A DNA stretch of 63,100 bases from an uncultured archaeon (GTDB lineage: Archaea; Halobacteriota; Methanosarcinia; Methanosarcinales; Methanoperedenaceae). Positions 2,210 through 26,744 of this stretch are shown here, piece by piece. The position numbers were made by a program, and so were the translations under genes. Each line of letters begins with the position of its first letter. Position 1 is the stretch's first letter. The DNA lies in contig CABMIH010000087.1 in NCBI GenBank assembly GCA_902386205.1, positions 1 to 63,100 of the forward strand. Reading direction: 5' to 3'. The notes beneath the pieces are model-generated. The model saw nothing but the letters and a program-made list of their open reading frames with translations, made no database searches and was not told where the DNA came from.

Positions 2210-2305
2210 CTTACCTCGAATCTACCTGATTTTTAGGCTTAGATGTCATGACCTGTTATTAAATCATATCCTGGCAAATTATGTTATGCGGCGGAAAATA
2301 AGAAA

Positions 2306-3199
2306 TCACTTTTTCCTGTTTCTTAATACTCCTGCCATAATGAACAATGCCAGGACAACAACGCCCGCAAATCCGGGAGAGGGTTTCGCTGCGTCTTTTT
2401 GAGCGGAATCCTGCCCGGCCGGAGCGGGGATCGTTTCAGATTTTAATGTGACAGCCCCTGATAGCGGATAATTATCTTTTGCTTTTCCTTCTCCGGGGAT
2501 GGTATATACAGCGCTTCCTTTGGAATCGCTCCAGTAATTACCTGATTTGCCGTCATCCCAGGAATTCAAGCCGCTGTTATCAAAAGCCTGGTTTTTATTG
2601 TCCATGAAATTGTTCGAATAAATATTGTTCTTGCGGGCAGAATCAGCATAGATCCCGAATTTATTGCCCTGGATATTATTATTGTAGATTTTATTATCGC
2701 TGGATGAGAATATGAATATGCCATTATTAGCACTTGATCTTATATCATTTCCTGAAATAATATTATCGCTGCTTCCCGAATATATCGAAATCCCGGCGAT
2801 ATTATCCAGGAAAATCGTATTTGCGACCATGTTGTTTTTCGCAGAATATATTGTTATTCCAGCATCCTCTTTACCGCTTCCCCCGCTGTTCTGGATAGTA
2901 AATCCGCTTATTTTCACATTGTTAGTCTGGTCTATCCTGATCACACTGCCGATTTTCTTGCCATCGATAACGGTCTTTTCTTTGTTCTTTCCAATTATCG
3001 AGATCCCGTTCTTTTTTATAATCAGGTTTTCGCTGTAAGTGCCTTCCCCTACAGAGATCTCATCGCCGGTATTTGACGCATCTATGGCCGACTGGATAGT
3101 CGTGTATGTTTGGCCTTTCCCGACGTTGAGCGTGGCCGCATTCGCAATTCCAAGACTTAGAAGTATTACAATGACTATTAAGAGGGTTTTATATATCAT
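2306..3199 (-). CDS. Secreted parallel beta-helix (NosD/PbH1-type) protein with PGF-CTERM anchor
   Basis: A secreted, probably surface-anchored protein. The ATG at 3199 is preferred over an upstream alternative start at 3262 because GGTGAG lies just upstream (3203-3208) and the signal peptide IYKTLLIVIVILLSLGIANAA then follows directly. The mature part has the sequence style of right-handed beta-helix proteins: short repeats such as NIIGKN, NNMVANT, DNIISGND, DNKIYNNNIQGN and NNIYSNNF, after a pectate-lyase-like opening (YTTIQSAIDASNTGDEISV). The C-terminus is tripartite: PSPGFAGV, a hydrophobic segment, then RNRKK. This is the PGF-CTERM signal of archaeosortase substrates, so the protein is probably processed and lipid-linked. 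The ligand is unknown; periplasmic carbohydrate binding is typical of the fold but not shown here. Confidence 0.82.
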   Translation of the reverse strand: MIYKTLLIVIVILLSLGIANAATLNVGKGQTYTTIQSAIDASNTGDEISVGEGTYSENLIIKKNGISIIGKNKEKTVIDGKKIGSVIRIDQTNNVKISGFTIQNSGGSGKEDAGITIYSAKNNMVANTIFLDNIAGISIYSGSSDNIISGNDIRSSANNGIFIFSSSDNKIYNNNIQGNKFGIYADSARKNNIYSNNFMDNKNQAFDNSGLNSWDDGKSGNYWSDSKGSAVYTIPGEGKAKDNYPLSGAVTLKSETIPAPAGQDSAQKDAAKPSPGFAGVVVLALFIMAGVLRNRKK

Positions 3200-3258
3200 A
3201 ATCTCACCACCGCTCATTCGCGTTCCAACGATAAAAAAGTTTGTGAGCCAGTGCCGGC

Positions 3259-4185
3259 TCACTGGGTTGTATTGACCTTTACGTTAATGGTCTGGGTACT
3301 CGGGTCGTCCCTCATCAAGCGATAATATAAACCGAATTTGTAAGTCCCTGTTGTGTTAAAGGTATATGATGTCTTTCCACCTGATCTGAGGGTTATGTTT
3401 GCAATCTTATTGTCCATCTCAGCAATAGTGTAAACGTCTTCATCTAAATTGTCCCACATTATCGCATCGCCAGCATATATTTGTTTACTCGGCTCTGTGA
3501 ACTTATTAGCCATCACTCTTGCATAAATACTCTTCCCGGTCGGCGTAGCTACAACAACAGGTTCAGGCGTAGGTGTCGGTGAAGGCTCGGGTGTTTCCGT
3601 GATTTCCGGCGTCGGTGAAGGAACTGGCGTTGGAGTTGGCGTGGGCACAGGAGTCGGAGTTGGGGTAATTTCCCTTGGCGTACCTGATTTGAGTGTTATC
3701 CCGATAACCTTTGCGTCAACTTTTTGCCCGTTGACTGATAAAATGATCGTAATATCATATTTCCCTGCAAGGCTTCTTCCCTGCATTTCCTTGACTGTAT
3801 TGAAATCAGCGCTGATTGTCTTAACAGTGCCCGGCAGGATTTCCTCATCAAAATTGACTTCTATAGTCCTTGTTTTCTTCTCTTCGCTCATGGTCTGTAT
3901 ATAAAGATTTGCAAGGAAATCATCGAGTGTCTTCAGTTTAGCTCTTATTTCAACGGTTTCTTTGGTTATCTTTTCAGTACCTGTATTTGCCACGAAAAGA
4001 TTTGCCGTAACTTTTTCCCCGGCTATGATGTAATCCCTGTCAAGTTTCATATCCACGATTTTCCCAACAAGGTTAGGATTTGCAAGTTCGAACTTTAGCG
4101 GAACAGTTGTTGTTTCAGATGGACCGACACAGCCTGAGGAGATGACTAATACGATTAATACTAAAATAGGAAGAATTTTTTTCAT
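3259..4185 (-). CDS. Lipoprotein with Pro/Thr linker and degenerate cupredoxin-like domain
   Basis: A surface lipoprotein of 308 residues. The signal peptide MKKILPILVLIVLVISSGC ends in a lipobox with the lipidated Cys at residue 19. The middle part (about residues 28-165) looks like a CARDB/Ig-like beta-sandwich (phrases such as VANTGTEKITKETVEI). A low-complexity PTPTPVPTPTP linker of about 45 residues follows, then a C-terminal domain with cupredoxin-like strand pattern (YAGDAIMWDNLDEDVYTI, TYTFNTTGTYKFGLYYR). The His/Cys/His/Met ligands of type 1 copper proteins are not visible, so copper binding is doubtful. It sits convergently before hisS and next to the beta-helix protein. A shorter protein of the same design lies at 56342. 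Function unknown; an extracellular structural or redox-partner role is a guess. Confidence 0.75.
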   Translation of the reverse strand: MKKILPILVLIVLVISSGCVGPSETTTVPLKFELANPNLVGKIVDMKLDRDYIIAGEKVTANLFVANTGTEKITKETVEIRAKLKTLDDFLANLYIQTMSEEKKTRTIEVNFDEEILPGTVKTISADFNTVKEMQGRSLAGKYDITIILSVNGQKVDAKVIGITLKSGTPREITPTPTPVPTPTPTPVPSPTPEITETPEPSPTPTPEPVVVATPTGKSIYARVMANKFTEPSKQIYAGDAIMWDNLDEDVYTIAEMDNKIANITLRSGGKTSYTFNTTGTYKFGLYYRLMRDDPSTQTINVKVNTTQ

Positions 4186-4330
4186 TAAATCACAGGTATA
4201 TTTATTGTATTATTTGTTTAAAAACATTTCCCAAATACATCATAATTATCATAACATTCTTGAATTTACAGGCCGGGAAACATAAGGGTTTATTAACGAA
4301 TACGCTGTAAACGGGGCGTGAGGATCATCT

Positions 4331-5563
4331 ATGGAAATCCCAAGACCACGAGGCACGCGTGATTTTCTCCCACCGGAGATGGCAAAAAGAAGACATGTAG
4401 AGAACAGGTTGCGCGAGGTCGCGGTGCACTGGGGCTACGGGGAAATAAAGACCCCGACCTTTGAGCATATAGAGCTTTTCACGCTGAAGTCGGGCGAAGG
4501 GATCCTTGGTGAGATATATAATTTCAAGGACAAGGGAGACCGCGAGATCGCGTTGCGTCCGGAACTCACAGCGCCGGTGGTAAGGATGTATGTTGAAGAA
4601 CTCCAGAAGTCGCCCAAACCCATGAAATTCTTTTATTTTGACAATTGTTTCAGGTACGAGCGTCCGCAGAAAGGGCGGTTCAGGGAGTTTTTCCAGTTCG
4701 GCGTTGAGATAATAGGAAGCGCCCGCCCCGAAGCAGAAGCTGAGGTCATCGCACTGTCTGTAGAGATGCTAAAAAGCGCGGGTGTTACAGGAGACTTGCA
4801 TGTGGGGCATCTGGGGATCGTGCGTTCCCTCCTGAAGGACATCCTGCCTGAGCATCAGAGCAAGATAATGCGCCTTGTGGATAAAAAGGATGATAAAGGG
4901 CTTGAGGACTTCCTTGATGAGATAGATGCGCCGGATGATATGCGGGGGAAGTTGTTCCGCCTGATAGGGCTAAGGGGCATAAATGCGGTGCATGAGGCAC
5001 GGGACCTGGTCGGGGAGATCGATGCTATATCACAATTCGAAGCCCTGCTTTCGCTCCTTGATGTTTACGGCCTTGAATACCAGGTCGATCTCGGGATAGC
5101 GAGGGGTCTTGATTATTATACAGGCATGGTCTTTGAGATATACTGCGAGGGCCTGGGTGCGCAGAACCAGGTATGCGGGGGAGGTTCGTACCGCCTCGCG
5201 CAGTTGTTCGGGGGCGAAGATACGCCCTCCACCGGTTATGCTATCGGGTTTGACAGGATAATGGAGATATGCGAAGTAACGCCTGCGGGCCATAAGAGCG
5301 TCGTGGTTGTCTCGTTCGAGGATACACGAAAGGAGGCCATCGTTATCGCAAAAAGGCTGAGGGAGCATGTAGTTACATATATCGACGTGATGGGAAGGAA
5401 ATTCAAAGACCAGATATCCTATGCCAACACGATAGGTGCAAGCCATGTGGTGATAGTGGGGAAGAACGAGCTTGATGCAGGAAAAGTTGCGCTCAAGGAT
5501 ATGAAGACAGGGAAGCAGGAGTTGCTGACGGTGGAGGAAGTGGCGGGGAGGGTGAAAGAATAA
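4331..5563 (+). CDS. hisS: Histidine--tRNA ligase
   Basis: Charges tRNA-His with histidine using ATP. The 410-residue length is usual for the family. Class II motifs are clear: motif 1 region starting [19 protein letters not shown], motif 2 [18 protein letters not shown], the HisRS-specific RGLDYYTG loop near residue 259, and motif 3 [11 protein letters not shown]. The C-terminal anticodon-binding domain begins around residue 330 ([20 protein letters not shown]). A start at the ATG of [12 protein letters not shown] matches family N-termini; GTGAGGATC lies upstream. It is transcribed alone and converges with the ccmF/cytochrome operon. Confidence 0.97.
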
Positions 5564-5631: not shown

Positions 5632-7581
5632 TTACTTAGTTTCCTTCTGCCTCCTGCTCAACAGGCTTGCGATGATCGTTAATAATATCCCGGAAATAAG
5701 CATTGCGCTTCCAAGCCACATAAGGCTTGCAAGGGGCTGCTTTTTAACGTTCAGCCCGATTTTTCCCTGCTGGAGCTGGTGCGGCAGCAACCCTTCAAAA
5801 TCCACCTTGATATCAGAGAATATACCATGATGCACTGCCGCGTTGGAGATGAACCCGAACTGGCGGCTCTTCCTGTACACGGCGGACATATTCATCTTTT
5901 CACCATAAAAAACTTCAAAATCCACTACCTGGAGCCAGTCCACCCCTTCCTTTTCAAGCCTGAAATCAAGATACTGCAAACCAATTTCCCCTTTCTCTTT
6001 ATAAACCCCTTTCTCGTTGAAAGCATAGCTGAAGTTCTGGCTGGTTTCAAAAGAAGTGCTAAATATAGCGCCAAGGATTATGAAAACGATCCCCAGGTGA
6101 AGCAGGTTCACGCCTGTAAGATGAAGGCTCACTACCCTGTTCTTTATCCTGGAATCCCTTATCATCTTGAAAAGTACCGTACCCGTGACAAAGAAGAAGG
6201 CAGGCAGGTAGGATGTCACGGAGAACGAGCCCAGTATTTTTTCAAGGAACCCGGCGTAAGGACCCGGCGCGGCCACGGCATGCGCGCTATCTGGCACAGC
6301 AATACTGAGGAAAAACGTGGCCGCAAAATAAATAACACCTACACCGGCGAGGGTGCGGTTCTTTACCCTGCCGTACAGCATGCATGCACCCAAAAGGTAA
6401 GATAACCCCAAAATGAACGGATAGAACAGCACATTATAATATTCCGGGAACATGACGATTTTCTGGCCTGTATAAAAAAGTAGAATGTACGCGGTCGGCC
6501 CCCAGAGAGCAATGAACGCCATCACAAGCAATAGCGCTACAGTGAAATAAAAAGTATTATGCGGCGCAAAGGCTGCACGGATACCGCCTGACCTGAGGGT
6601 TTCAGGTGCGTCATACCTGATACCAAGAACCAGTGAAATAACGATCACAGCAGCCATGAAAACAATAAGAAGCCACCAGGAAGGCGTTCCGGGAAAGCTG
6701 TGTATGGAACTATAAATGCCGCTTCTTGCCACAAAAGTTGTGTATATTGTCAAAAGGAACGTATTGATGCACAAAAGCGGGAACCATTTCTTATATTCCC
6801 CTATTGCAAAACGAACGATCGCATGCAGCGCGGCGGTCAGCAAAAGCCATGTAGCCAGTATTGATGATTGGACAGGATCCCACTGCCAGAAACCGCTCCA
6901 TCCGAGCAGGCGGTTCGCCCAGATGCCTCCTGTGATCATACCTATGCTGAGGAACAGCCATGAAAAACGCAGATAATTCCGTACACTTGGCATCTCCCCG
7001 TGTGTCAGGTATGCAAGGGATGCCGCCGCGGGAATGATAGTGAAAGCATATGCCGCAAATACTGAAAAAATATGCAGGGGCATAAGCAGGTCCAGGAGCG
7101 CGGGATCCAAACCGTTACCTGAAACAGGAAGGGAAGCGCCTTCCACAGTGAATATCGACTTAAAAGGCGACATTCCAACAGTTAAAACAAGCAGGAAAGC
7201 GCAGCCAATAAGCGCATACACATTGGTCAGGAGGGGGCGCTCTGATATTTTATGCCGCTCTGTGTGAACAAGCACAACAATGAGAGAAAGCCATGCCCAC
7301 ACAAGATATGTGCCCTCCTGCCCCACCATTATGGCTGCAAGCCGGTAGAGGATCGGCATCTGTTCATTGGCATGCTGCCACACGTAAAACAGGCTGTAAT
7401 CAAGCGAAACAAAACTATACGCCAGTAACATCACTGCAAGGGTCACAAAAGCCGCAGAAAGCCTTGTGAACATGATCCCGGGCTTTATTTTGCCTTTTAT
7501 CAGGAATACAGCGGCAGAACAGCATGACAGGGTGCTCAGGTATAATAACAGGTTTCCCGCGCTCACCTGTACCACTTCCAT
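5632..7581 (-). CDS. ccmF: CcmF-like cytochrome c assembly (haem lyase) membrane protein
   Basis: Integral membrane protein of the system I cytochrome c maturation family, which ligates haem to CXXCH motifs outside the membrane. About 649 residues from the ATG at 7581; GTG codons just downstream are alternatives because no convincing ribosome site is visible. Family marks are GQEGTYLVW (the GxEG region), a conserved His in LMPLHIFSV, the tryptophan-rich haem-handling motif GFWQWDPVQ (about residues 230-238) and many hydrophobic segments, with a soluble region near the C-terminus followed by a last transmembrane helix. The start overlaps the end of the giant multiheme cytochrome by 19 bases, so the two are probably cotranslated and this CcmF may serve that substrate. 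ccmA-E are not in the window. Confidence 0.9.
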   Translation of the reverse strand: MEVVQVSAGNLLLYLSTLSCCSAAVFLIKGKIKPGIMFTRLSAAFVTLAVMLLAYSFVSLDYSLFYVWQHANEQMPILYRLAAIMVGQEGTYLVWAWLSLIVVLVHTERHKISERPLLTNVYALIGCAFLLVLTVGMSPFKSIFTVEGASLPVSGNGLDPALLDLLMPLHIFSVFAAYAFTIIPAAASLAYLTHGEMPSVRNYLRFSWLFLSIGMITGGIWANRLLGWSGFWQWDPVQSSILATWLLLTAALHAIVRFAIGEYKKWFPLLCINTFLLTIYTTFVARSGIYSSIHSFPGTPSWWLLIVFMAAVIVISLVLGIRYDAPETLRSGGIRAAFAPHNTFYFTVALLLVMAFIALWGPTAYILLFYTGQKIVMFPEYYNVLFYPFILGLSYLLGACMLYGRVKNRTLAGVGVIYFAATFFLSIAVPDSAHAVAAPGPYAGFLEKILGSFSVTSYLPAFFFVTGTVLFKMIRDSRIKNRVVSLHLTGVNLLHLGIVFIILGAIFSTSFETSQNFSYAFNEKGVYKEKGEIGLQYLDFRLEKEGVDWLQVVDFEVFYGEKMNMSAVYRKSRQFGFISNAAVHHGIFSDIKVDFEGLLPHQLQQGKIGLNVKKQPLASLMWLGSAMLISGILLTIIASLLSRRQKETK

Positions 7582-10500
7582 ATAAAGAAAATGAATCCTA
7601 TAAGAATAAGCGCAGGTACAATATCTTTTAAGAAGATCTCCGCGTACTCCAGTCCCCGCGGTTTTGTCACAGTGAGCACGGCTATCTCTGGTTTGCTCCA
7701 CTTGCCTGAAGACTCTTTCACATGAACGAAGACAAGATGCGTTCCAAATGATAGATCAGAAGTATTCATCACTGCCCCGAGCAGTGAAGCGGAAGTGCTT
7801 GAGTTGCCCACAACGTATTCCAGCATATAACCCTGCCCATCATCGCCCATCTTATCGATAAAGTACTCGGCCCTTGTCACTTTCATAAGAGGTGCAAGAA
7901 CAACTGTCGCCTGGATCATGCTCTTCTCTCCTGCCGACACACTCTCAGGCTTAAGTGTTACTCCAAGCCTTGGTATGAACCCCGAGGCAGCGAGGCTGTG
8001 GAAACCTACAGGGTCAGCGCCGCCGTGGCACAGGGTACAGTTTGGCGCAAACCCGTGTGCAGTCCCGGCCGGGGAAGTTCCCTCCATGCCCATGTTTGTG
8101 GCATTAAAAGGCCGCTCTCCACCCTGGTATGTATGGCAGTCCTTGCATCCAGTGATGAGTCCCGCTGTCCAGTTATTCCAGCCCGGGTTCTGGACTGTGC
8201 CCCTGGGGTATGAGCTGTAATGGAACCTGCCCTCACCCGAGGCATTATGACATGAAGTGCATGTCCTGAATGAGCTATTTGAGATCGAAGATGTGTTGAA
8301 CATGTTGCCGCGCAGGATCATTGAGGAAGCGTTCTGTGCATCCTTCAGTGCTTCAAGGTCATCATGGCAGGTGCGGCATGGTTCATAAGCAGCGTCAGTG
8401 ACATTCCCGACTATGCGCGTCAGGTTGTGGAATGTTTCTGCCTCTTCATTGTGGCAGCGCAGGCACGCCCCGCTCTCCTTTACAAGTGTTATCTGGGCAT
8501 TACCGTAATGTGCCGCACCGTATTCAGAATGGCAGTCCACGCACTGGATATTCTCATACGGCTGGTACTTTCGCCCTTCGTGTTCTTCATGGCACGTGGT
8601 ACATTCGACCCTGTAATTGCCAGCACTGCTGAAATATTGCTTTCCCACAAGGCTTGGGGTATGGAATTTACTCACTCCTTCAATAGCGTGGCATGTTTCA
8701 CAGCCCGATAATACCTTGATACCAAGCCCGTGGCGCAGCGCTCCTATCTGGACGCCGGCTTTATGCGGAAAATTCCCTTCCTCGCTGTGGCACTGGAAAC
8801 AGTTGCCCATGCTCATGTTCTGGTATTCCCTTACAATAAGGGATGAATGCAGCGTATTGTTCGTTGCGTTGTGGCAGTCCCTGCATGTATAGTTGCTTTG
8901 TTTAAGAGTGTTTGCCATGCTTTCAGGTGCGTCCGGGTAGTGTGTGCGGATGACGCTCAGGTTGAATTTTTCAGCTTTTTCCCTGTTGACGTGGCAATCT
9001 TCACATCTTCTTGTTATGGTTAACCCCTTATCATGGAACGTGGCGATCCTGTAACCTGCATGACAGAGCGTGCAGTTGTTGCTGGAATTATGTTTCAGAA
9101 CAAGGGGTGCATTTCCCCATTTGGATGCGTTTGTTGCATTGGCATGGCATCCGCCGCAGTCCGAAGTATTTAACAGTCCCTTCCGTGTTGAATAATGTGA
9201 TGTATAACTGACGGTTTTATTTACAAGGGTGTTGGAATGGCAGACGTTGCAGGATGCGCCGGTTGATATCCCTGCGCCGGGATAGTGTGAATAAACCTGT
9301 TTTGCGCCAAACTGGAAGTATCCGTGACAGCTTATACAGGTTTTCGGCGTATCATTGCCTGGGTAGGACACTGGATGCTCCGAAGGTTCACTCCCGTTGC
9401 CGTGGCACGCCCAGCATGCCTTGTTCACGTCATCCGTGATGAAACCCGTATAGGTCGCATTACGGTTAAGACCTGCATGTACCCCATTCCTGAAGGCGAC
9501 AGGGTCGATCTTGACAGGTGCGACCCCGCTTCCGGTATGGCAACTGATGCAGTCAGAAGAATACCCGCCCTGCGTAAGGGTGTAAACATGGAAACCGGTA
9601 GGTTCTTTTCCTATGGTTATGCGATCATCAAGTGAGAGGTATTTTAATTGTACACCCTCCTGCAATATCTGTGTTGTGGCATTGCGGGTCTGCTGTTCTC
9701 CTGCAATAAGCCTCACATCACTTAATACAATAACAGTGCTATTCGCCAAATTGTATTCAGCCAGCCTCAAACCACTGACGGCAGGTTTTGTCCCGACAAA
9801 TATCCTTTCAAGCTTTGCACTGAATACATTGATCTTGCGCCCGAACACCCACTCTTCATGTGTAATGTAATTTCCCTCGTTAATTATTATATCCTCTATC
9901 AGGGTCCCGTTCCTGAAAACCTGAAGCTGTGCGTTGCCCCTCGTAGTCCCTGCATCGGCAACGCGCAGGCTGTAGCCCTCACCGATATCCCATTCTTCCC
10001 CGACACTGAGCATCCTTGTGTCAAGCGCTGAGAAGTTGGCAGGCATCAGGGCAAGAGTAACATTTTCAGTAGTTTTATCGAGAACATAATAATCCATCCC
10101 GTCCGGCCTGTTCGCCCTGTACTCGCTGTCATGGCAGGCATAACACGAATTGTTATCCTTCTCCCTGTGGATACGCGTGGCGAGCACATTTCCCGACAGC
10201 TCAACTGCCGACAGGTTATTCGCAGTAAATAATCTTTTTACTGTCAGGTCTACCACGCTTATATTTTCTGTCCCTACCCCGCTGACTTCATACCTGAACA
10301 CATCACCGCCGGCCACCAGTTCGCGCTTCAGCATCTCCCCATCCTTTTCAAATTCGAATATTGCGCCTTCCCTGGTCGCTTCTATTAATGCGAGCGAGTA
10401 ATTATCTGCAAGTTCCCATGTGTTGCCTGACACGAGGGTCATATTAACAGGAGTGTAGCGGGTATGGTTCCTCGGGTCAGGCGGCGTGCCAAAGCCCTGG

Positions 10501-13500
10501 CTTGCATTTATGTGGCAGCCGACGCAGTCCCTGGTATCCATCGGCGATACTGAAAGGTAATGGGAAGCCGCCAGTGCCGATGTGCGTGCGGCCTGCGCCC
10601 CCCTGGCATGGCATGATACACAGGAAGCATTGGTTGGTACGCTGCTCACACCGGGTATGTGTTTGAACACAATGGGCGCAGTACCAAAATCGCTGACGTG
10701 GCAGTTTTCACACGCCTTGGGTGAACTGCCAGGATGCGTCCAGCTAACATTGACCGAAAAGCTGTACCTTGCATCATCCCCGGCACTCCTTAGAATAGCT
10801 ATCCAGTTCCCGGCCTGGGGCATCGGGACATTTACCTGGCCATAATAAGCTGTAAGATTAGGCGCATACAGGGTCAGGTTAAGTATGCTGCTGCCGTTCC
10901 AGTCCAGTGTTTCATTAAGCCACCTTGAATTATTGGGTACACTGAAATTATAAACGCGCGACTCTGACCCGACAATAATACCATTCTTTACCTGCCGCGG
11001 CGTATGGCAGTCCACGCAGTTGAGGTTCTTATGCGCGGACATTCCATATGCACTGAAGGCCACGGGTTTGCTTGTAGCATTATCGTGACAGTCAAGGCAA
11101 TTCGATCCCCCGACGCCTACTGTAACGTAATGCAAAAAGTCTTTTGTGGTATTGGATGTACCGTGACACCCGGCGCAGCCCACATCGGAATAATCAGACA
11201 GGTCATGGTTGTAGTATTTCGTCCCGTCATTAGAGGTGGTATAGCTGCCATAACTTGAATTTAAGGTTATTTCAGGGGGTATCGGGAGAGAAGCTTCAGA
11301 AAATACCCTGACCATATCGTTATAGGTGACGCCTCCTGAGGAATATCCCTGGTAATGGCATGAAGCGCACCAGTACTGGCCCGAAATACTTGAGTTCCTG
11401 GTATTACTGCCTGCAAGAGTTGATGCCCGGCCAAGAGGGTCGTGCATGCTGTAGTTGCGGGATATTTCATGACAATACTGGCACGCTGCGGTACTGTTAG
11501 TCCAGTACGCTGCTGTCTTGTTCCATTTTCCTCCCGCAACCGGGCTGTTGCTGTGATAAAGGCCTGGAACCTGTACTGCTAAGATTTGGCCCTGTGGTGA
11601 TGTGATATTCAATCCTGCCCCGTAGGTATCTGTAAGAGACTGCGCCTTCGTGGTATTCTGGTGGCAGATGCTGCAATCAAGTACACGCGTCATGCCGGCA
11701 GGCGTGTGGCCGTGGCACTCCGTACAATTCAGGTCTTTATGTGGAATGATCTGTGTGGGCTGCGCGGAACTACCGTCCTGCAACCTGTAGCTCTTTGCGC
11801 TTGCATTATAATGGCACAGCACACAGTCCCTGTCATTTTGCCCGTAGAACACGAGGCTCTCAGCGCTGTGGGTATGGCATTCTGAGCAGGCCGTACGCCC
11901 GTGCCCTGCGACCTGCGGCGCGCGCACGATCCATGAAGAGGTGGTATTGTCCAGTACCACAGTGTGGCCCGAAGAGGGAACTGAGTTCTCTATGAGCGAG
12001 ACGTTCCTTGTGGTATTCTGGTGGCACGATTCGCAACTGCTTCCCGCCACAAAGTTATAGCTGCTGAAAGTGGAAGGCGCATGGTCATGGCACTCCCTGC
12101 AACTGGCATTCCCGTGTCCCTGTACCTGGGGCGGAATTACATACAGCGGGTTCCCGCCCGGGTTTGTCACGCTACTTCTTGTTGAGTTGGGCTGCCTGTA
12201 ATCAAGGAGTGAAATTGTGGAACTTGTGTTCTGGTGACAGTTGGTACATGAAACTGCTGTAGACCCTACGAAGGTAAGGTTCGAATTTGAGTGACCGTGG
12301 CAGTTATTGCATGATGTGTTGCCGTGCCCCGTGGTTTGCGGGGGATGTACGATAAGCTGCGACGCTCCCGGATTTGTCACACTTGTGAGGTCTGAATCGT
12401 TCAGTTTTCCGGGTATCAGCTCCACAAGTTTTTCCGCATCCTGATGGCATCCGACGCAGTTTGAGCCAACTGTCAGGATGAGGGTCTCCGGGCGATGCCC
12501 GTGGCACTTGTAACATGAGACGTTGCCGTGTCCTGCTATCTGGATCGGGTGCGGTTCAGCCCTTGAATCGTTGGTTGTCAGTTCATCCCTGTCAAGGGCG
12601 TTTGACACTGATTTTGAACCGTGGCATGTACTGCATATGGTGTTGTTTCGGATCCCTTCCACAAGAGTCAGGTTCGATGTGTTCACAGTCTGGTTGGTGT
12701 GGAGCATGTAGGCGTTAATACTGTCCTCGTGGCAGAATATGCACTGGGATTCGTTATTATAAGTATAAGAGAACCGCAGGAATATGGATGCGGGGCTTCC
12801 TCTTTCAAGCGGCAGGGCGCCTGTTGATGTCTTACCGTGGCAGCGTTCGCAGTCAAGGTGCTGGCTTGCATTGTATGCCACGCTCTGCGCATTCTGGCCG
12901 TGTATACGCTGCTGGTGGCAGTTGTTGCAGTCTGAAGTAGTGAGATGGATCGAACTGAAATTGTGCGGCATGGTGTGGCACTTTAAGCATGTTGAGGCTT
13001 TCTCATAATCCGTGAAGCTTGAGTCCACCTCGCCATGCCCTGAGTCAAAGTGGCAGTACATGCAGTTTTTATTGAAATCCTTGGCATGAGGCTCACTTCT
13101 GTTATGACAATAAGAACACTCCCTGATCGGGGAGGTTATATCCGTGATTCCGGGGATGTTCCCGACCTGGATGTGGCAGTCGGTGCAAGGCCAGGCCTCG
13201 TACTGGTGGTAATTATCATCCACAGCCAGCCGCAGGTTATCAAAGTACACACTTCCTGTGCTGCCGCTGCCATAAACCCCGATCCAGAGACTGCTCACCG
13301 TACCTGTGGCATTAAAAGAGGCTGACTCGTTCACGGTGCTGTTATGGAACAATACCCTTATCTCCCTCCAGCCGTTCCAGTCCAGGGGTACAGTATAATT
13401 ATACCATGCAGTGGTGTAAACTCCAAGTACCAGTTGAGTATTCGCATCGATTGAAGAATTCACCATGACCGTGATGCCTTTGTACCTGCTGGCATTTGTT

Positions 13501-16500
13501 GCATTGAGGCTGTTCCCAAGATAATCCGTAAGACCCGTATAGTTCAACACTGCGCTGTGATTTCCGCTATCATTATTGGGGCCGGCGTAATATATATGGG
13601 ACTGGCCGAAGCTTGTGAGGTTGGCAGCAAAAATGCTGTTATTTTCAAAATCCGCAAGTACATCCGCATGTTTGATCAGACCTGAGATATTCAGGCTGTT
13701 CCCGGACACGTCGCTCTGGTGGCAGTTCATGCATGTGGCATTCGCCTGCGGGTATTTATCCCGCTCTGGCCAGCCGTGCCCTTCTGTCTGGTGGCAGGTT
13801 TCGCAATTCGGCGGACGCTCCAGATTGTGCCTTCCCCCGTGGCATAATCCGCATTCGATCTCTTTGTACTGGGTGTGGCTTCCAATTTGCTCTTTTTTCA
13901 TGTCATCGATGAGAATAGTGCCGCTTGAGCCTGATTCGCTTTCAGTTTCAAGCTTGATCCTGACAGTATCCGAAAAGCTTATATATAGTAGATCATGCTG
14001 GCTGAGTTCTTTTATCGGGACTGAGATTTTTCGCCATCCTGTCCAGTTTACCTGCATGGGTGATGACTGGTGCCAGTTTACTTTTGTGGATCTCGTGTTG
14101 TTGATAGCAAGATACAGCGTAGTATTGGAGTTATCCCCGTATACCCAGAGGCTTATGCTGGTGGCATTCGTGAGGTCAAGGTTCTTCCTGTCGATATACA
14201 CCCTGCCGAAACCTGCACCAAGAGAATAATCCACCTGTCCTGAGAAACTGCCGCTTTTATTTGTGGTGCTCGTGCTTATCGAAACCGTGCTGAACCTGTA
14301 GCCGCTTGTGGCCGTGACATCAGATACGTCCTCGAAATTCTCAAGCGTGGTATTGCTGCCGCTTAAATTCCCGGGAACGCCCTGCATCCCGGAGCCCGAT
14401 GATGAAGGGTGGCACAGGGTACATTGCGGCACTCTTGGTGGGTCGGTGATGTTCCCGTGGCATGACTGGCATGCCGTTTCCTTGCCATACCACGAACCGC
14501 CTGGTTTGGTATTGATATTCGCATGGATGTCTGCGCCATACGTGTCGTTCAGATAACCCTCGTTCGGATGGTCGGCGCTGTTGTGGCATGTCTTGCATTT
14601 CGTGGGGCCTCCCGTGCTTCCGGTCTCGTTCCTGTGGCATCCGCTGCAGCTTGCGTCGCCTCCATAATTATGCCAGTCGCATGTATTGCTGATGCTCTTA
14701 TGGGTATGGTTTATGCTAAAATCTGATGGGGCGATACTTGTATCATCGTGCAGATTATAATGCATGGTAATGCTGTTCGGCCTGTGGCACCGCGCGCAAC
14801 CCCATATCATCACACTGAAATTTTCCCCGGTGCCGGGATATTCTGCAATCTGGAATGAGTAATTGCCTTCAGGAATGCTTTTGCCCGGGAACAGTACTGA
14901 AGTGGAATATGTCTTATCGCTCTCGCTGAGGGGATAAGTACCGTAGAGAGTGCCGTTGGGATAATATACCAGCGCCGTGAGACTTTGCCCGGTCCTTCGA
15001 AGCCCGGCGCTGTCAAGCACTGCTACCTTGAGCGTGATGTTGCGGTATTCTTCGGGCGCGGAGTTTGATGCCCATGCAGAGCCGCCTATCAGCACTTCGC
15101 CCTTATCTGTCCAGATACGAAGGTTTGAAGTCGCAAACAGGTGTGAGGCTGTCCCATCAATCCCGTTCTTTGAGGACGTGACATTGACAAAATAGGAGGA
15201 ATAATCATCCGGTGCCGTGAAGTTCACGACAGCTTCACCATTGGTGTTTGTCGCAGTCGTGTTACTTGAGATGATCGTTCCGTCGTAGCGGGTCAGGGTA
15301 GCCACGACCGCGGCGCCGTACAGGGAGCCGGAAGTTGAAATATTTTCCCGCACTGCTATTACGGCAGTTATGTTCTCTCCAGGGTTGTAGGCTGTCTGGG
15401 AAAGCGTCAGGTTAACGCTCAGGTTAACGGTATATGGAAGGAGCGCGTTCCCTCTTATGCCGTCTGTGTCTGTGGCATTGATAGTCACATTATACTTTCC
15501 TGCCTGGTCGGTAAATGCCTGTGATAATATATTATAACCCGATTGATTCAGGCTTGTTGTATTTATCTGGTTCACGATGGATGTTAAGTTGGATATGGTC
15601 ATATTTACCGCGGCATTAGCTATCGTAGTGGCATTGGTCTCATCCTCGACCCGTGCGAATATTGATCTTGATTCCCCCACTTTTGCAGATATATCCTGTA
15701 TCGTTACGTTGAGCCTTCTCACCCTGAAAGAAGCGGATGCATTGCCGTTATCCGTACCATTTGAAGCCGATGCATTGACTGTGTAAATGCCGGCGGCGGT
15801 CGTATCGGAATAATTTGCCGAATAAATGCCGCTTCCCCTGTCGGTTACATTTCCGTACAGGGTGCTAAAATTCCTTGTAACGTTCGACGGGGCGGACACG
15901 GTTATATTAACCACCCCGCCACTGATCCCTGTGGTACTATCGCTCACATTTACTGTGATCTGCGCTGTTTCATTCGGGTTGTACTGCGTCCTGTTGGTCT
16001 GCACGCTTAAATTAAGCCGTACCCTGAAAGTGACATTTGCTGTCCCGGTTACATCCTGGTAATCCTTCACGCTGATATTCACACGGTATGTGCCGCCCGG
16101 TTGCGGTGTTCTTATCGTGTGGTTATAATACCCCTGCACGTTTGTTGTGTTGGTGTAGTTGATCAAAGTGCTGTTGGGATATGTGATATTGAAATACACA
16201 GTGGCATTTGGTATTGCCATTCCTGTGCGGTTATCCGTCGCATAACCTGTGATCGTTACATTACCCGCGCCGGATTCGAATGGTCCTCCTGCGCTTGTAT
16301 TAACATCAAGCCTGCGTACCGAGAATACCGTGGTGTTGCTCCTTCCAAGGGTTCCATTGGCGACGTAGCTGCCGTTCGCGTACAAGATGTATGAGCTTGC
16401 GTTTGTGAGAGAAAAGGTGGCGCTGTATGAGGTGTTCGAGGTTATATTTGCTGTATAAACAGGTGAATTATTTTCTGGCTCGATGTTCAGATCGTCGAAC

Positions 16501-17888
16501 CATACATTCCCCACAGTATCGGAGACCAGGTGTATCTTTACGTTATCGGCATTAGCAGGCGATGAAGCGCTGCCCTGTAATGATACCCAGCCGTTTTGCT
16601 CCCAGATAGTTCTTTGGGTGTTGATCGCTGTGGAAATACTGCCTGTCCCGTTGTACCACTCGACCCAGAGTCGCAGGTTTCCGCCTGTGCTGTTATCTGT
16701 CTTTGCCCATACACTGAACGTATAACCTGTACCGGGTGAAATTACATACAGGCTGGAATAGTTCCATTCTCCTTCCGTAGCATTTGCAGGAAACTTCAGT
16801 ATCCTGGCGCTGTAACTTCCTGTCCTTGGAACCGTATCCTGCGTTTTTATTCCATCCCCCGCGCCTCTCCATCCATCAGGCAGGCTGTTATTATCAAGGT
16901 CGGTTTCAAAGGACGGGTTGAATGCAAGGTTCTTTTTTACAATGATGTTCACGCTCGCATTCGCACCTGCACCCCTGTAGGTCGTAATGCCGCTGGCTGT
17001 GGTAGTCCCTGAAGCGGTGTAAACTGCCCTATCAGTGGCAGTATTGATATCGAACTGGTCAAGTTCAAATATCGTGGTATTGTAACCTGCATTCTCCCCA
17101 GTGCTTGCGCCTGCCGTTATGGTGTAGTTGCCAAGAGGCGAGGTTGGGAGAGTGAAGATAAAATTTACAGGCGCGGTCGTATTTCTTGTTTGTTCAAATA
17201 CCTTGATGCTGCTTGGATCATAAATCCTCAGGGTCAGGTCAGAGGCCGTTGTATTCCCGTTCTCTGTGACATTTACGTTTATGCTTACGTTCTCAAGCGT
17301 ATTGTATATCGTTTTGTCAATACTGATATTCACAGCAAGGTCTCCCACGTTGAAGCTCGTGTTTTCCATCCTCATGAGCCCGTTTACCGTGGCATTTGTG
17401 ACAGCGGTGAACCTGCCTTTTATTGCCGGGATAGTATAATTTGCCAGGGCTTCGCCTGTTGCGTTCGCCTGTGTAAGATTCACCTGAGCCGCTGTTCCGT
17501 TAGGATAATATATCACGGTAGTTACATTGTCGATAATAGAATCCCCTGTGACATTCCGGAGCTTCGTTGTAAGGACGAGCGTCTCGCCTGCTGAATACAT
17601 ATTCTTATCCTGGGTGAAGGTGATCGCGTATCCTTCAACCGTCCCGTTAGCCACGCTGTACGGCGCCTGGAGGGAACTCATTGAAGCTGTGTACGGGCCG
17701 GATGTAAGCGGACGCTCAAAATAGAGATAATATACTTTTCCCTCGTATGGTGAAAGGGTCTTGATAAAGGTGACATTCACATAACCACCCATGTCAAATA
17801 TGCTTGATGCTTTTGGATTTCCATCTATGTCGTACAGCGCAGCCGTAGTTGCGGAATACCCTCCAGGCAGGGCAAGATTAAAGGTCAC
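7563..17888 (-). CDS. Giant S-layer-type multiheme cytochrome c, haem-bearing part (52 CXXCH)
   Basis: Open frame of 3,441 codons from a GTG. By eye it has 52 CXXCH motifs, from about residue 1031 to 3287, so it could bind some 52 c-type haems. Order: residues 1-1000, Ig-like repeats (units ending FRVR, rich in N-X-S/T); an embedded jelly-roll-like module near residues 320-480; haem region 1; two further jelly-roll inserts (each with W-x-GWR and FDN/IDD endings); a tandem di-haem repeat block (11650-12560); an S-layer DUF1608-like stretch near residues 2460-2760 with WELADNYSLALIEA and WDIGEGYSLRVADAG; haem region 3; a C-terminal beta domain; and a final transmembrane helix ALILIGFIFFIWKWYR. 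It has no signal peptide of its own. The frame upstream is continuous with the 17949-23843 frame except for one TAG, so the GTG is probably not a real start. Likely role: electron transfer through the S-layer. Confidence 0.93.
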   Translation of the reverse strand: MTFNLALPGGYSATTAALYDIDGNPKASSIFDMGGYVNVTFIKTLSPYEGKVYYLYFERPLTSGPYTASMSSLQAPYSVANGTVEGYAITFTQDKNMYSAGETLVLTTKLRNVTGDSIIDNVTTVIYYPNGTAAQVNLTQANATGEALANYTIPAIKGRFTAVTNATVNGLMRMENTSFNVGDLAVNISIDKTIYNTLENVSINVNVTENGNTTASDLTLRIYDPSSIKVFEQTRNTTAPVNFIFTLPTSPLGNYTITAGASTGENAGYNTTIFELDQFDINTATDRAVYTASGTTTASGITTYRGAGANASVNIIVKKNLAFNPSFETDLDNNSLPDGWRGAGDGIKTQDTVPRTGSYSARILKFPANATEGEWNYSSLYVISPGTGYTFSVWAKTDNSTGGNLRLWVEWYNGTGSISTAINTQRTIWEQNGWVSLQGSASSPANADNVKIHLVSDTVGNVWFDDLNIEPENNSPVYTANITSNTSYSATFSLTNASSYILYANGSYVANGTLGRSNTTVFSVRRLDVNTSAGGPFESGAGNVTITGYATDNRTGMAIPNATVYFNITYPNSTLINYTNTTNVQGYYNHTIRTPQPGGTYRVNISVKDYQDVTGTANVTFRVRLNLSVQTNRTQYNPNETAQITVNVSDSTTGISGGVVNITVSAPSNVTRNFSTLYGNVTDRGSGIYSANYSDTTAAGIYTVNASASNGTDNGNASASFRVRRLNVTIQDISAKVGESRSIFARVEDETNATTIANAAVNMTISNLTSIVNQINTTSLNQSGYNILSQAFTDQAGKYNVTINATDTDGIRGNALLPYTVNLSVNLTLSQTAYNPGENITAVIAVRENISTSGSLYGAAVVATLTRYDGTIISSNTTATNTNGEAVVNFTAPDDYSSYFVNVTSSKNGIDGTASHLFATSNLRIWTDKGEVLIGGSAWASNSAPEEYRNITLKVAVLDSAGLRRTGQSLTALVYYPNGTLYGTYPLSESDKTYSTSVLFPGKSIPEGNYSFQIAEYPGTGENFSVMIWGCARCHRPNSITMHYNLHDDTSIAPSDFSINHTHKSISNTCDWHNYGGDASCSGCHRNETGSTGGPTKCKTCHNSADHPNEGYLNDTYGADIHANINTKPGGSWYGKETACQSCHGNITDPPRVPQCTLCHPSSSGSGMQGVPGNLSGSNTTLENFEDVSDVTATSGYRFSTVSISTSTTNKSGSFSGQVDYSLGAGFGRVYIDRKNLDLTNATSISLWVYGDNSNTTLYLAINNTRSTKVNWHQSSPMQVNWTGWRKISVPIKELSQHDLLYISFSDTVRIKLETESESGSSGTILIDDMKKEQIGSHTQYKEIECGLCHGGRHNLERPPNCETCHQTEGHGWPERDKYPQANATCMNCHQSDVSGNSLNISGLIKHADVLADFENNSIFAANLTSFGQSHIYYAGPNNDSGNHSAVLNYTGLTDYLGNSLNATNASRYKGITVMVNSSIDANTQLVLGVYTTAWYNYTVPLDWNGWREIRVLFHNSTVNESASFNATGTVSSLWIGVYGSGSTGSVYFDNLRLAVDDNYHQYEAWPCTDCHIQVGNIPGITDITSPIRECSYCHNRSEPHAKDFNKNCMYCHFDSGHGEVDSSFTDYEKASTCLKCHTMPHNFSSIHLTTSDCNNCHQQRIHGQNAQSVAYNASQHLDCERCHGKTSTGALPLERGSPASIFLRFSYTYNNESQCIFCHEDSINAYMLHTNQTVNTSNLTLVEGIRNNTICSTCHGSKSVSNALDRDELTTNDSRAEPHPIQIAGHGNVSCYKCHGHRPETLILTVGSNCVGCHQDAEKLVELIPGKLNDSDLTSVTNPGASQLIVHPPQTTGHGNTSCNNCHGHSNSNLTFVGSTAVSCTNCHQNTSSTISLLDYRQPNSTRSSVTNPGGNPLYVIPPQVQGHGNASCRECHDHAPSTFSSYNFVAGSSCESCHQNTTRNVSLIENSVPSSGHTVVLDNTTSSWIVRAPQVAGHGRTACSECHTHSAESLVFYGQNDRDCVLCHYNASAKSYRLQDGSSAQPTQIIPHKDLNCTECHGHTPAGMTRVLDCSICHQNTTKAQSLTDTYGAGLNITSPQGQILAVQVPGLYHSNSPVAGGKWNKTAAYWTNSTAACQYCHEISRNYSMHDPLGRASTLAGSNTRNSSISGQYWCASCHYQGYSSGGVTYNDMVRVFSEASLPIPPEITLNSSYGSYTTSNDGTKYYNHDLSDYSDVGCAGCHGTSNTTKDFLHYVTVGVGGSNCLDCHDNATSKPVAFSAYGMSAHKNLNCVDCHTPRQVKNGIIVGSESRVYNFSVPNNSRWLNETLDWNGSSILNLTLYAPNLTAYYGQVNVPMPQAGNWIAILRSAGDDARYSFSVNVSWTHPGSSPKACENCHVSDFGTAPIVFKHIPGVSSVPTNASCVSCHARGAQAARTSALAASHYLSVSPMDTRDCVGCHINASQGFGTPPDPRNHTRYTPVNMTLVSGNTWELADNYSLALIEATREGAIFEFEKDGEMLKRELVAGGDVFRYEVSGVGTENISVVDLTVKRLFTANNLSAVELSGNVLATRIHREKDNNSCYACHDSEYRANRPDGMDYYVLDKTTENVTLALMPANFSALDTRMLSVGEEWDIGEGYSLRVADAGTTRGNAQLQVFRNGTLIEDIIINEGNYITHEEWVFGRKINVFSAKLERIFVGTKPAVSGLRLAEYNLANSTVIVLSDVRLIAGEQQTRNATTQILQEGVQLKYLSLDDRITIGKEPTGFHVYTLTQGGYSSDCISCHTGSGVAPVKIDPVAFRNGVHAGLNRNATYTGFITDDVNKACWACHGNGSEPSEHPVSYPGNDTPKTCISCHGYFQFGAKQVYSHYPGAGISTGASCNVCHSNTLVNKTVSYTSHYSTRKGLLNTSDCGGCHANATNASKWGNAPLVLKHNSSNNCTLCHAGYRIATFHDKGLTITRRCEDCHVNREKAEKFNLSVIRTHYPDAPESMANTLKQSNYTCRDCHNATNNTLHSSLIVREYQNMSMGNCFQCHSEEGNFPHKAGVQIGALRHGLGIKVLSGCETCHAIEGVSKFHTPSLVGKQYFSSAGNYRVECTTCHEEHEGRKYQPYENIQCVDCHSEYGAAHYGNAQITLVKESGACLRCHNEEAETFHNLTRIVGNVTDAAYEPCRTCHDDLEALKDAQNASSMILRGNMFNTSSISNSSFRTCTSCHNASGEGRFHYSSYPRGTVQNPGWNNWTAGLITGCKDCHTYQGGERPFNATNMGMEGTSPAGTAHGFAPNCTLCHGGADPVGFHSLAASGFIPRLGVTLKPESVSAGEKSMIQATVVLAPLMKVTRAEYFIDKMGDDGQGYMLEYVVGNSSTSASLLGAVMNTSDLSFGTHLVFVHVKESSGKWSKPEIAVLTVTKPRGLEYAEIFLKDIVPALILIGFIFFIWKWYR

Positions 17889-17948
17889 AGTGCCTGAATT
17901 CTCTTGCGAATTGTTGTTAAAAAGCAGGATGGGGACCCTGTAATCCCT

Positions 17949-17951
17949 CTA
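17949..17951 (-). other. In-frame TAG (amber) codon inside the giant cytochrome reading frame
   Basis: The codon context on the minus strand is GAC CCG TAG AGG GAT TAC AGG GTC. After the TAG the same frame stays open for 20 codons to the GTG at 17888 and then for 3,441 more. The residues around it, QSWFDP-stop-RDYRVPILLFNN, resemble the W-x-x-x-x-W-x-YR-x-P opening of DUF2341-type domains, so the stop lies inside a domain motif and not between domains. No Shine-Dalgarno sequence with good spacing was seen before the GTG. Possible explanations are pyrrolysine or other amber suppression, a recent nonsense mutation, or a base error. Confidence 0.8.
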
Positions 17952-20900
17952 CGGGTCGAACCATGACTGGTTGATCGTATATGCTATAAATGAAGTATTA
18001 TGCACCGAAAGTACGCCGCTGTCATTCACACCCACGCTCGCATTGAATATACCGTAAGCCGTACTGTTAAAGCTCCCGGTAAAATTGAGAACATAGCTTC
18101 CTGAACTGGTTGATGTAATGTTGAACGTGTAAGGATTTCCGCTTTGCAGGATTGTGATATTGACCTGCGCGCCCGTGATATTGGATCTTGTCTCATTATC
18201 CTTCACAGTTCCGTAAATTATTAGAGGCACAACGGTATTGGATGAGAGCGCAGACTCATTGAAATTATACGGGCCAAAGAAGGTTGAGGTGATATCAAGT
18301 GTCCGTACCTTAAAAGTCGTATATGCGCTGCTGTTTCCCGATGTGGCGTTCACGCGGTACATTCCGGTGGGGTCCGCTGTAAAGTTGAAGGTATAATTTC
18401 CCCCTGAACCGCTGGCAGCGCCCTGGGCCAGTACCGGGGAACTGAGGTTGTACAGGGTAACGTTATCGAATCTGATATACGCGCTTCCTCCGATACTTGC
18501 ATTTTTTGCATAGCCGTTCAATTTTATAAAAGATCCTGCAGGCAGCGTGAAATTTCCCTGGTAGAACTGTTCCCCGCTCCTGTAGAATCGCAGCGTTCCG
18601 ACATCGTATTCTATGGAAAAACGGATTTTTCGCCCATCTGCGGTCTCCTGTTTTGAATACCGCTGAACACCGTTCATATATACAAAATACCCGTCCTGTG
18701 AGTTATCCGAATAATTGAGGAAATCAAGAGAAGCATTCTTCGTGGCATTTCCTATCGTCGGTCTTGCAAGAAGATAGCTTGATGTACCGTTTGCAGATAC
18801 CTCGTATTCAAGGATGAAATGGGAAGGTAATGAGATAGTATTGAGCTGCACGGCTTTTCCTGCCCATGTATTATTTATTGTGAGGTTGGTTGTGTAAAAG
18901 AGCAGTTCATCGTTCTGGGTGTAGTTGAGGTAATAGCCTGTATTATTGTCAGGCGCAGAATAGTTCATTTTGCTTTCATCAAAATACGTGCCCGCAAACT
19001 CGTTCCAGATGTCGAATTTCTGTACTGTCACATTCACGGCAGCATCCTCCGGCACTGTACCATTCCTTACAAGAACAGTAACATTGGCCGCATCTCCCGG
19101 ATTATACTGGAGCAGGGTGTTCATTGCAAGGTTCAATTGCACTTCAAACCGTGCTGTTGTACTGTTGACAGTCCCTTCAAGAGTTGTGGCATTCACAATT
19201 ACGATATACCATCCTGCAACAGAATCGTTCGAAAGCGTGTGGTTCCACAGGTAGCTTCCGTTCCTGCCCGCAAGGGTTGTATTTGTTATTTCACTTGCCG
19301 CTGAGCTATTTATCCTGATAATAACATCGGCTGTCCTTGCGGCCTCCAGTGTGTCCCTCAGCAGCCCCGAAATGTTCACTGTTTCACCGGGTTTGTATGA
19401 AACCGGGCTCCTGTCAAGGCTTGCATTCACAACGAACCCGGATGCCCTGAAACTCCGGTTTGCGGCATTGGCATGCGCAAGCGTTGTGGCGTTCCGTGCG
19501 TACACGGCAATTATGTAATCCCCTTCAAGAGATGTGTTCGAAAAAGTGGTATTGAAATAGCCATTCGTGGTGCTTCCGCTCAGGTTCTCAATTCCTGCAT
19601 CAGGTTTTGTTATGTTGATCGACACATTCGCATTTGCAGGGGTGTAATTCAGGTCAAGTACGGTTACATTAAGCAATACGGCCTCGTTGAGGGCATATAT
19701 GCTCTTGCTCACATTTGTGCTTGTATTATAGTGAATATGAAAAACAGGCGCCGCACTTCCGATGAGCGTATTGTATGTGACATCCACATAAGCCGTATAG
19801 ATGCCGCCGTATAAGTTCGCAAAAGAGACAGTATAGTTTCCCGATGATGTCGTGGTGCTGTTCACTGCTGCGGTGCTGCCGTTGTTAAGAGTGACATTGA
19901 CCGTTGCGCCGCTGGCCTTTCCGCCGGTTTCATCATCATAAACTGTGCCGTTTATCACGACCATTGTGCCTGGCTGGTATTCTGCTGAAACATTGGCCGT
20001 GACCGTAAGGTTACTTATCCTGAAGCTTCCTGTTGCATTTCCTGTAACACCGCTTCTTGAGACATTGACAGTAATATTATAGGTTCCAAGCGTGCCTGTG
20101 CTGCTGTGGATGATATTGTACTGCCCATTCCCGTCTGTCGTTCCGTTGTAGTAGTAATATGTGCTGTTGACCTTTACTGTGGAATTGACGACCGCACCTG
20201 ATACAGGGGAAAGCCCGCGATCATATACCGTGATACTGACTGGAACGGAACTGTTCTTATTATACGATGCCAGCAGGACTCCCAGCGTGACGTTATATTT
20301 CACCCTATAAGTGGTGTTCAAGCTCCCGATTATGTTAGCATCAGAAGCGTTCACTGTGATGTTATAATCGCCCGCCGCATCCACAAGCCTGGAAAGGTTA
20401 TAGTAGCCCGTGGAATTGGTGGTCGTGGCTGCCGTATAATTATACGTGCTGTTGCTGATCGTGATATTCACAGGGGCGCCGCTTATGTTGCTGTTGTTCT
20501 CAAGGTCCCTTACGTATCCTGTTATAGAGGAATTGTTATCGACAATGTACGGTCCGCTTGCATTTACAGTTATGTTCAGGCCCCTTACACGGAACGATAT
20601 GTTCTCGCTATCCTTTGCCGTCGTGGCATTGTATCCCCATACTGTGACGTTATACAATCCGAGAGCTGCGCCGGACGAAAGCGTATAGTCTGAAATATAT
20701 ATGCCGCCTGAAGTATGGTTGAGGGTCATGTTCGCCACAGGTATGCCGGCCTTTGTGATATTGGCATAGACCGTGGCATCGGTGATGCCGCCGCCAATAC
20801 TTGCGCTTATTTTTACGGTGTCCCCCCGGTTGAACTGGGTATTGTTAACAGAAGGTGAAATATCAAGAATGGGCGCCCAGTATGTGATGTTGATGATCTC

Positions 20901-23843: not shown

Positions 23844-23989
23844 ACATATTCGACTAATATGTGGTACATTTCCATATGCTAATTATAATCATAATAATAT
23901 GATTAATATACTTTATTAATCTTATGGTTATCGGAAGGAATCCAATTAACTCAAAAAATGTTATTAAGAATTAAAAATCAGCTCAATTT

Positions 23990-26231: not shown

Positions 26232-26273
26232 ATTTTTAACTCTTCATAGAAGGGACTATATACATGTTACTTT

Positions 26274-26744
26274 TCACACCGGCTTCCACTTCCCAATGAC
26301 TAGAAGGACCGATAAAAGAGTTAGCACAGTGATGATAATTAGTGTATACAGTGTATTGAATATTCCCTGCCTTTCCATCTCATTTGCTATGAGACCTGGT
26401 ATGACGAATCCTATAACTTGAAAGTCTACGGTTGAAGTCAGTGCAAAATTTGTGATCATATCTGCACCCCATGCCAGGCCAAAATTAACCAGCATAATAA
26501 CGGAGAATCTTCTTCTCCCGAAAAGTATTACATGGTTTGAAGTCTGCTTGACTATGAAAAGCGTTGCAAAGGCTATTAACAAAGTATACACAACTATCAG
26601 AGGCCTGTCTAACACGAAAAGCGCCATCAGGCCGGGTACTATTACTCCACCTGAAGAAAAATTCTTTTTTTCATACCACAGCATACTTATGACGATTCCC
26701 AGAACAATTGCAATTCGTATTGACTGATATTCAAAGTTTAACAT
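26274..26744 (-). CDS. pgsC: Poly-gamma-glutamate synthesis membrane protein PgsC/CapC-like
   Basis: 156-residue integral membrane protein with about five hydrophobic segments and the PgsC-type phrases NFSSGGVIVPGLMALFVLDR and VIGFVIPGLIANEMERQG. In Bacillus, PgsC (CapC) pairs with the ligase PgsB at the membrane to build and move poly-gamma-glutamate. The start codon overlaps the pgsB stop by one base (TAATG at 26742-26746), so translation is coupled. The length and the two GxIxPGL signatures agree with the family. Confidence 0.87.
   Translation of the reverse strand: MLNFEYQSIRIAIVLGIVISMLWYEKKNFSSGGVIVPGLMALFVLDRPLIVVYTLLIAFATLFIVKQTSNHVILFGRRRFSVIMLVNFGLAWGADMITNFALTSTVDFQVIGFVIPGLIANEMERQGIFNTLYTLIIITVLTLLSVLLVIGKWKPV

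Follow-up and report, generated by a model that had tools for sequence, protein, structure and literature searches.

A giant S-layer-fused multihaem cytochrome gene of a Methanoperedenaceae archaeon, interrupted in the assembly by one amber codon, combines an outer haem array with a putative trans-S-layer conduit

The passage of electrons across the S-layer in ANME archaea is an open question. Among the described cytochromes that bear on it, ANME MHC type B (Chadwick et al. 2022, PMC9012536) has an S-layer domain, one linker haem, a C-terminal helix, and a haem-free N-terminal region with an M6/InhA-MAM-like domain; the CcmF found beside it, CcmF2, belongs to a clade of its own. In “Candidatus Methanoperedens manganireducens,” MHC/S-layer proteins with 113, 52, and 19 haems have been described, and methane oxidation with Mn(IV) was accompanied by high expression of those with 113 and 52 haems (Leu et al., PMC7082337); a passage of the same paper cites weak expression of MHC/S-layer genes under Fe(III) conditions. 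The locus compared with these systems here lies in a stretch of 63,100 nucleotides of contig CABMIH010000087.1, hereafter the window, to which all coordinates refer. The giant cytochrome gene and all of its features are on the minus strand.

A sequence-only reading of this DNA had taken the open reading frame (ORF) at 7563 to 17888, which encodes 3,441 residues, as the gene, but this ORF is only the 3' two-thirds of a larger one. The ORF at 17949 to 23843 shares its frame and is separated from it by a single TAG, and the 60 bases (20 codons) between the two are coding. The closest relative, in Candidatus Methanoperedens MnB_21 (record VEPN01000007.1; G008 in our set), is an uninterrupted frame of 5,442 residues with 88% protein identity. 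A hydropathy scan found no signal peptide in the downstream ORF and a clear hydrophobic signal segment at the start of the upstream one. The boundaries therefore had to be redrawn: the whole gene occupies 7563 to 23795, about 5,410 codons with one in-frame TAG, and the ATG at 23795, common to this gene and the MnB_21 ortholog, is the likely start codon. Overlooked with the boundaries were the in-frame stop, the N-terminus that lies 6 kb upstream of the ORF, the dedicated CcmF gene overlapping the 3' end, and the fact that other genomes encode the head with the outer haem array as a protein of its own. Gene callers will output a leaderless, “cytoplasmic” 52-haem protein from this locus, although the exported protein starts 6 kb upstream.

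The order of parts in the full frame, from the N-terminus, is a signal segment, a haem-free head, 31 haem motifs with two long inserts, 3 haem motifs, an S-layer domain with a linker haem motif, 17 haem motifs, a beta domain, and a membrane helix. The signal or hydrophobic segment (GIVLAFLVPLLVWTLSVPL; 23667 to 23723) was located by hydropathy and is also present in G008, G019, G021, and G034. The head (14799 to 23666) is about 2,950 residues of Ig-like, MG2, and carboxypeptidase-regulatory-like repeats recognized by Pfam, and it includes a CBM_4_9-like jelly-roll domain at 16521 to 16934 (PF02018, E = 3e-6); CXXCH is absent from the first ~3,015 residues of the full frame. Homologous heads are found in G021 and G023 (55 to 61%) and, at about 30%, in G034, G073, and G079, which are genomes of another family of the order.

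The outer haem array (11004 to 14798), with 31 CXXCH motifs, aligns with a 5,323-residue protein of G021 up to residue 4312 of the full-length frame. Between haems 5 and 6 lies a CBM_11/CIA30-like jelly-roll insert (14007 to 14378; PF03425 and PF08547), and G021, G034, and G073 all retain this gap of 190 residues. A second haem-free insert of about 180 residues sits between haems 8 and 9 (13188 to 13718), with its spacing kept in G021; it gave no Pfam match and may also be a jelly-roll. The conduit module (8025 to 10712) contributes 21 CXXCH motifs flanking or inside the S-layer domain, 17 of them on its C-terminal side, so that the 31 of the outer array and these 21 make up the 52. Hydropathy places the C-terminal membrane anchor helix at 7581 to 7637, with equivalents in G008, G019, G054, G058, and the split forms described below.

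The motif count made by eye was confirmed by script: the downstream ORF has exactly 52 CXXCH motifs, at residues 1031 to 3288, and zero CX3-7CH variants. These motifs contain 104 of its 105 cysteines, and shuffled versions of the sequence have a mean of 0.11 motifs. Pfam bore out the S-layer DUF1608-like sequence (PF07752) and the carbohydrate-binding-like jelly-rolls (CBM_11/CIA30 and CBM_4_9), and it confirmed c-type cytochrome domains; the terminal membrane helix is a hydrophobic helix at ORF residues 3418 to 3436. With domain, motifs, and helix all found, the original description stands: the protein is a multihaem cytochrome fused to S-layer sequence and anchored at its C-terminus, and the ANME archaeon that encodes it belongs to the genus Methanoperedens. 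After the first CXXCH there are 68 non-motif histidines for the 52 haems. In an alignment of 10 sequences, 16 CXXCH motifs and 17 non-motif, putatively distal, histidines of the C-terminal module are invariant, as expected if the haems are bis-His ligated. No credible relative of solved structure emerged for the C-terminal haem module or for the first head segment.

The S-layer (DUF1608/PF07752) domain, at 9774 to 10442, has two beta subdomains. Besides the Pfam match, it has a profile match (E = 3.5e-7) to 3U2G, the Methanosarcina acetivorans S-layer protein MA0829. An AlphaFold model was built from two sequences; its mean pLDDT is 52, with the core of the first subdomain at 84 to 87, and its best hit is 3U2G (Foldseek E = 1.9e-5; Z = 11.7, rmsd 2.7 over 102 residues); a single-sequence model of 450 residues, at pLDDT 39, was too poor for use. 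The linker joining the subdomains contains a single CXXCH (CYACH; 10131 to 10145), 127 and 198 residues away from the neighboring haem motifs, which the model puts between the two beta domains. Its two cysteines and its histidine are invariant in 11 of 11 aligned relatives. A further S-layer protein, which has a C-terminal anchor and a pair of DUF1608 domains, is encoded 5 kb from the cytochrome on the plus strand (29709 to 32363); the DNA identity of its gene to MnB_21 is about 68%, compared to 87% for the cytochrome.

The frame at 5632 to 7581 (minus strand), which overlaps the 3' end of the cytochrome gene, encodes a CcmF-type haem lyase (PF01578; NCBIfam nrfE). A first tree of three groups was uninformative on its placement and was extended. 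In the extended tree the protein falls in a clade of CcmFs that lie beside S-layer cytochromes in three families (support 0.948 to 1.0), apart from the Methanosarcinaceae-type CcmFs and from three paralogs in its own genome. As judged by this clade of MHC-adjacent CcmFs, it appears to follow the CcmF2 pattern. Also beside the cytochrome, at 25146 to 27955 (minus strand), CapC and Mur-ligase-like (CapB-like) genes accompany a gene for a 361-residue membrane-anchored protein, in what looks like a poly-gamma-glutamate-type capsule cluster; a good nucleotide match to this cluster was not found in MnB_21.

Synteny between the window and the MnB_21 contig is limited here to the cytochrome and ccmF genes (5640 to 23929, 87% at the nucleotide level): the ortholog has the same adjacent CcmF, its other neighbors differ, and nowhere else in that genome does the upstream flank recur as a conserved block. 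MnB_21 also encodes the published record holder, with 113 CXXCH motifs in a protein of at least 5,196 residues, the frame of which ends in a VPGF helix that by eye resembles an archaeal sorting signal. The presence of this 113-CXXCH gene identifies the genome as that of “Ca. M. manganireducens.” Since the counts of 113 and 52 both match in MnB_21, we infer that the published 52-haem protein is the product of the ortholog gene, and the cytochrome in the window would then have a published, expressed protein as its ortholog. The two are alike in sequence, with all 52 CXXCH motifs aligned, and in the adjacent CcmF; they differ in that the gene of “Ca. M. manganireducens” is uninterrupted, whereas the one in the window has TAG at a Tyr position.

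Other relatives encode portions of this protein separately. Two unanchored giants with Ig-like heads are homologous to residues ~121 to 4312: the 5,323-residue protein of G021, another Methanoperedens, with 36 CXXCH motifs, and a 6,598-residue protein with 67 CXXCH motifs in G034, from the other family of the order. Both share the haem spacing and the 190-residue insert gap, and neither an S-layer domain nor a C-terminal helix was detected in them. The conduit part, residues ~4001 to 5426, is homologous to cytochromes of 2,155 residues with 34 or 35 CXXCH motifs in G054 and G058, from another family, which are followed by a CcmF 54 to 58% identical to that of the window; other genomes, then, have the conduit module but lack this head. 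In G054 the MHC-B/CcmF pair is preceded by a second large cytochrome gene (2,318 residues, 31 CXXCH motifs) and by two genes for multi-pass membrane proteins, candidates for the signal peptidase and 8x TMH genes described by Chadwick et al.

In at least six other Methanoperedens genomes (G006, G009, G014, G016, G017, and G021) the conduit is encoded in two pieces, a 12-haem/S-layer gene and then a 16-haem/helix gene, followed by ccmF. These operons share the C-terminal modules and their order with the giant cytochrome but specify two polypeptides that each have a signal peptide, and the intervening TGA is a normal gene boundary. An in-frame TGA conserved in seven homologous loci was considered as recoding and rejected, since the downstream ORF has its own signal peptide and in G016 the genes are in different frames. 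The split conduit genes fit the report of Leu et al. (PMC7082337) that “Ca. M. manganicus” has a 12-haem/S-layer protein in three copies. In G019, which has the same S-layer conduit and CcmF, the 3,349-residue ORF has a NosD/beta-helix head in its first ~900 residues. Heads seem to be exchangeable on a conserved conduit. No copy of the C-terminal module, viral or Borg, was found in viral contigs.

Because relatives encode its parts separately, we interpret the giant cytochrome, in the window and in MnB_21, as an unanchored giant cytochrome fused to a trans-S-layer conduit: one polypeptide unites what relatives encode as up to three proteins, namely, outer unanchored, S-layer, and membrane-side cytochromes. 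Gene fusions are classical evidence that separately encoded proteins work together, and this one suggests partners for testing.

We consider there to be a good chance that the protein is an electron conduit of the MHC-B type, anchored in the membrane and built into the S-layer, to which a giant extracellular haem array and a head have been added, and that it probably carries electrons from the membrane across the protein coat to extracellular metals. Its export, haem loading, topology, haem spacing, electron flow, and head function are predicted here from the sequence-derived architecture, S-layer fold, conserved haem sites with their distal histidines, fusion relations, and CcmF neighborhood. 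The N-terminal signal would export the chain, which would receive its haems on the outer side of the membrane with the help of the dedicated CcmF encoded next to it. The C-terminal helix would anchor the protein, and the adjoining 17-haem module would take up electrons in the space below the S-layer from smaller cytochromes, themselves fed by menaquinone:cytochrome c oxidoreductases. The DUF1608 domain would replace or join an S-layer subunit, with the linker haem passing electrons through the plane of the lattice, and 3 further haems and then the 31-haem outer array would conduct them outward. The haem-free Ig-like and carbohydrate-binding-like head would touch mineral, matrix, or neighboring cells. 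This architecture is compatible with the earlier suggestion that the protein could extend from the membrane past the lattice. In favor of the conduit reading is also the high expression published for the 52-haem protein that we take to be the product of the ortholog; weighing against it are the in-frame TAG with a pseudogene directly upstream of the gene, the weak expression cited for Fe(III) conditions, the 127 and 198 residues that separate the linker haem from its neighbors, and the missing M6/InhA-like N-terminus of MHC-B. With more than half of its length made up of haem-free Ig-like and CBM-like sequence, the protein could instead be mainly an adhesin or surface stalk, the haems of which serve local redox reactions or haem storage rather than transport across the S-layer. 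We think this unlikely in view of the invariant haem sites and distal histidines, the haem motif in the S-layer linker, the dedicated CcmF, and the membrane anchor, and other genomes have the conduit module without this head.

The state of the gene depends on the in-frame TAG (17949 to 17951; WFDP-stop-RDYRVP), codon 1965 of the long frame, which is Tyr (TAC) in the MnB_21 ortholog and one base change away from it. Relative to that ortholog, dN/dS is 0.17 before the TAG and 0.12 after it, values that point to purifying selection on both halves, and there are only three indels in 5,425 codons, with 52 of 52 CXXCH motifs aligned. These three observations indicate that the gene still functions or stopped doing so only very recently, and we read the TAG not as recoding but as either a mistake in the assembly or a nonsense mutation of very recent origin. 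Should the TAG be real and fixed, the gene would be a young pseudogene from which only the haem-free head of 1,964 residues is made, and with no suppression the 52-haem part would be silent in this genome. This is a possibility to be taken seriously, if the less probable one: the TAG is present in the assembly a single base from TAC, the downstream ORF has no signal peptide, and TAG terminates other genes within the window. The reading is also kept alive by the gene directly upstream, a quinoprotein (beta-propeller-like) pseudogene at 23990 to 25073 (minus strand), which is truncated and frameshifted and so compatible with real gene decay in the lineage. Set against this are the findings that no other disabling change was seen in 5,400 codons in the comparison with MnB_21, that dN/dS is low in both halves and the 52 motifs are intact, and that no second copy of this conduit type was found in the genome. 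As for the quinoprotein gene, an intact relative in G015 has a 605-residue frame with 74% identity; we had considered its ORF as one read through a TAG, but the actual defect is the truncation and frameshift.

It is highly improbable that the TAG is read through, by way of pyrrolysine, a suppressor tRNA, or programmed readthrough, to give a secreted haem-free head along with the full-length conduit. The same frame does stay open for more than 3,441 sense codons past the TAG, with strong conservation there, but a profile search of the genome (95% complete) gave no match for PylC, and the sole match for PylS was a His-tRNA synthetase gene at 4331 to 5563. A CUA anticodon was absent among 39 tRNA matches from a nonexhaustive search that likewise did not recover Tyr, Trp, or Gln tRNAs. 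An odd “ctaa” call and two other unclear calls were read by eye as intron-bearing Arg-CCT, Lys-TTT, and Glu-TTC tRNAs. Pyrrolysine use or amber suppression was set aside on these grounds; moreover, TAG is an ordinary stop elsewhere, and no relative has a stop at this position. We would give very long odds, too, on a functional amber codon, at which termination would yield a secreted haem-free giant head, and regulated readthrough, or reversion in a subpopulation, the full-length membrane-to-exterior conduit. Were it true, one gene would switch between adhesin and wire.

Compared with ANME MHC-B, the giant cytochrome, in the reading we prefer as a trans-S-layer conduit, has five of six features: the S-layer domain (PF07752, over the cut-off together with its neighbors), the linker haem, the C-terminal helix, the haem-free N-terminus, and the adjacent CcmF2 paralog. 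The sixth, an M6-like N-terminus, is replaced here by a head and 31-haem array of about 4,200 residues; Pfam found no M6/InhA match in any segment, and the positive controls from G054 and G058 matched InhA-like_MAM. The protein is therefore filed as a variant of the MHC-B-type conduit with a replaced head and not as a standard MHC-B. Assignment to ANME MHC type C, described with a pectin-lyase-like N-terminus and without S-layer domain or anchor (PMC9012536), was rejected, since the S-layer domain and anchor are present and a beta-helix match is absent. The sequence-only reading had placed the protein at the large end of its kind, which holds for total length but not for haems: 52 is unexceptional beside the published proteins with 113 (PMC7082337) and 86 (PMC9012536) haems, and more than 50 haems are reported in 7 of 16 Methanoperedenaceae MAGs (PMC7327174). 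This is a known kind of protein, with a haem count that sets no record; new are the corrected extent of the gene, the joining of an unanchored giant cytochrome and a conduit in one protein, the apparent swapping of heads among relatives, and the amber codon.
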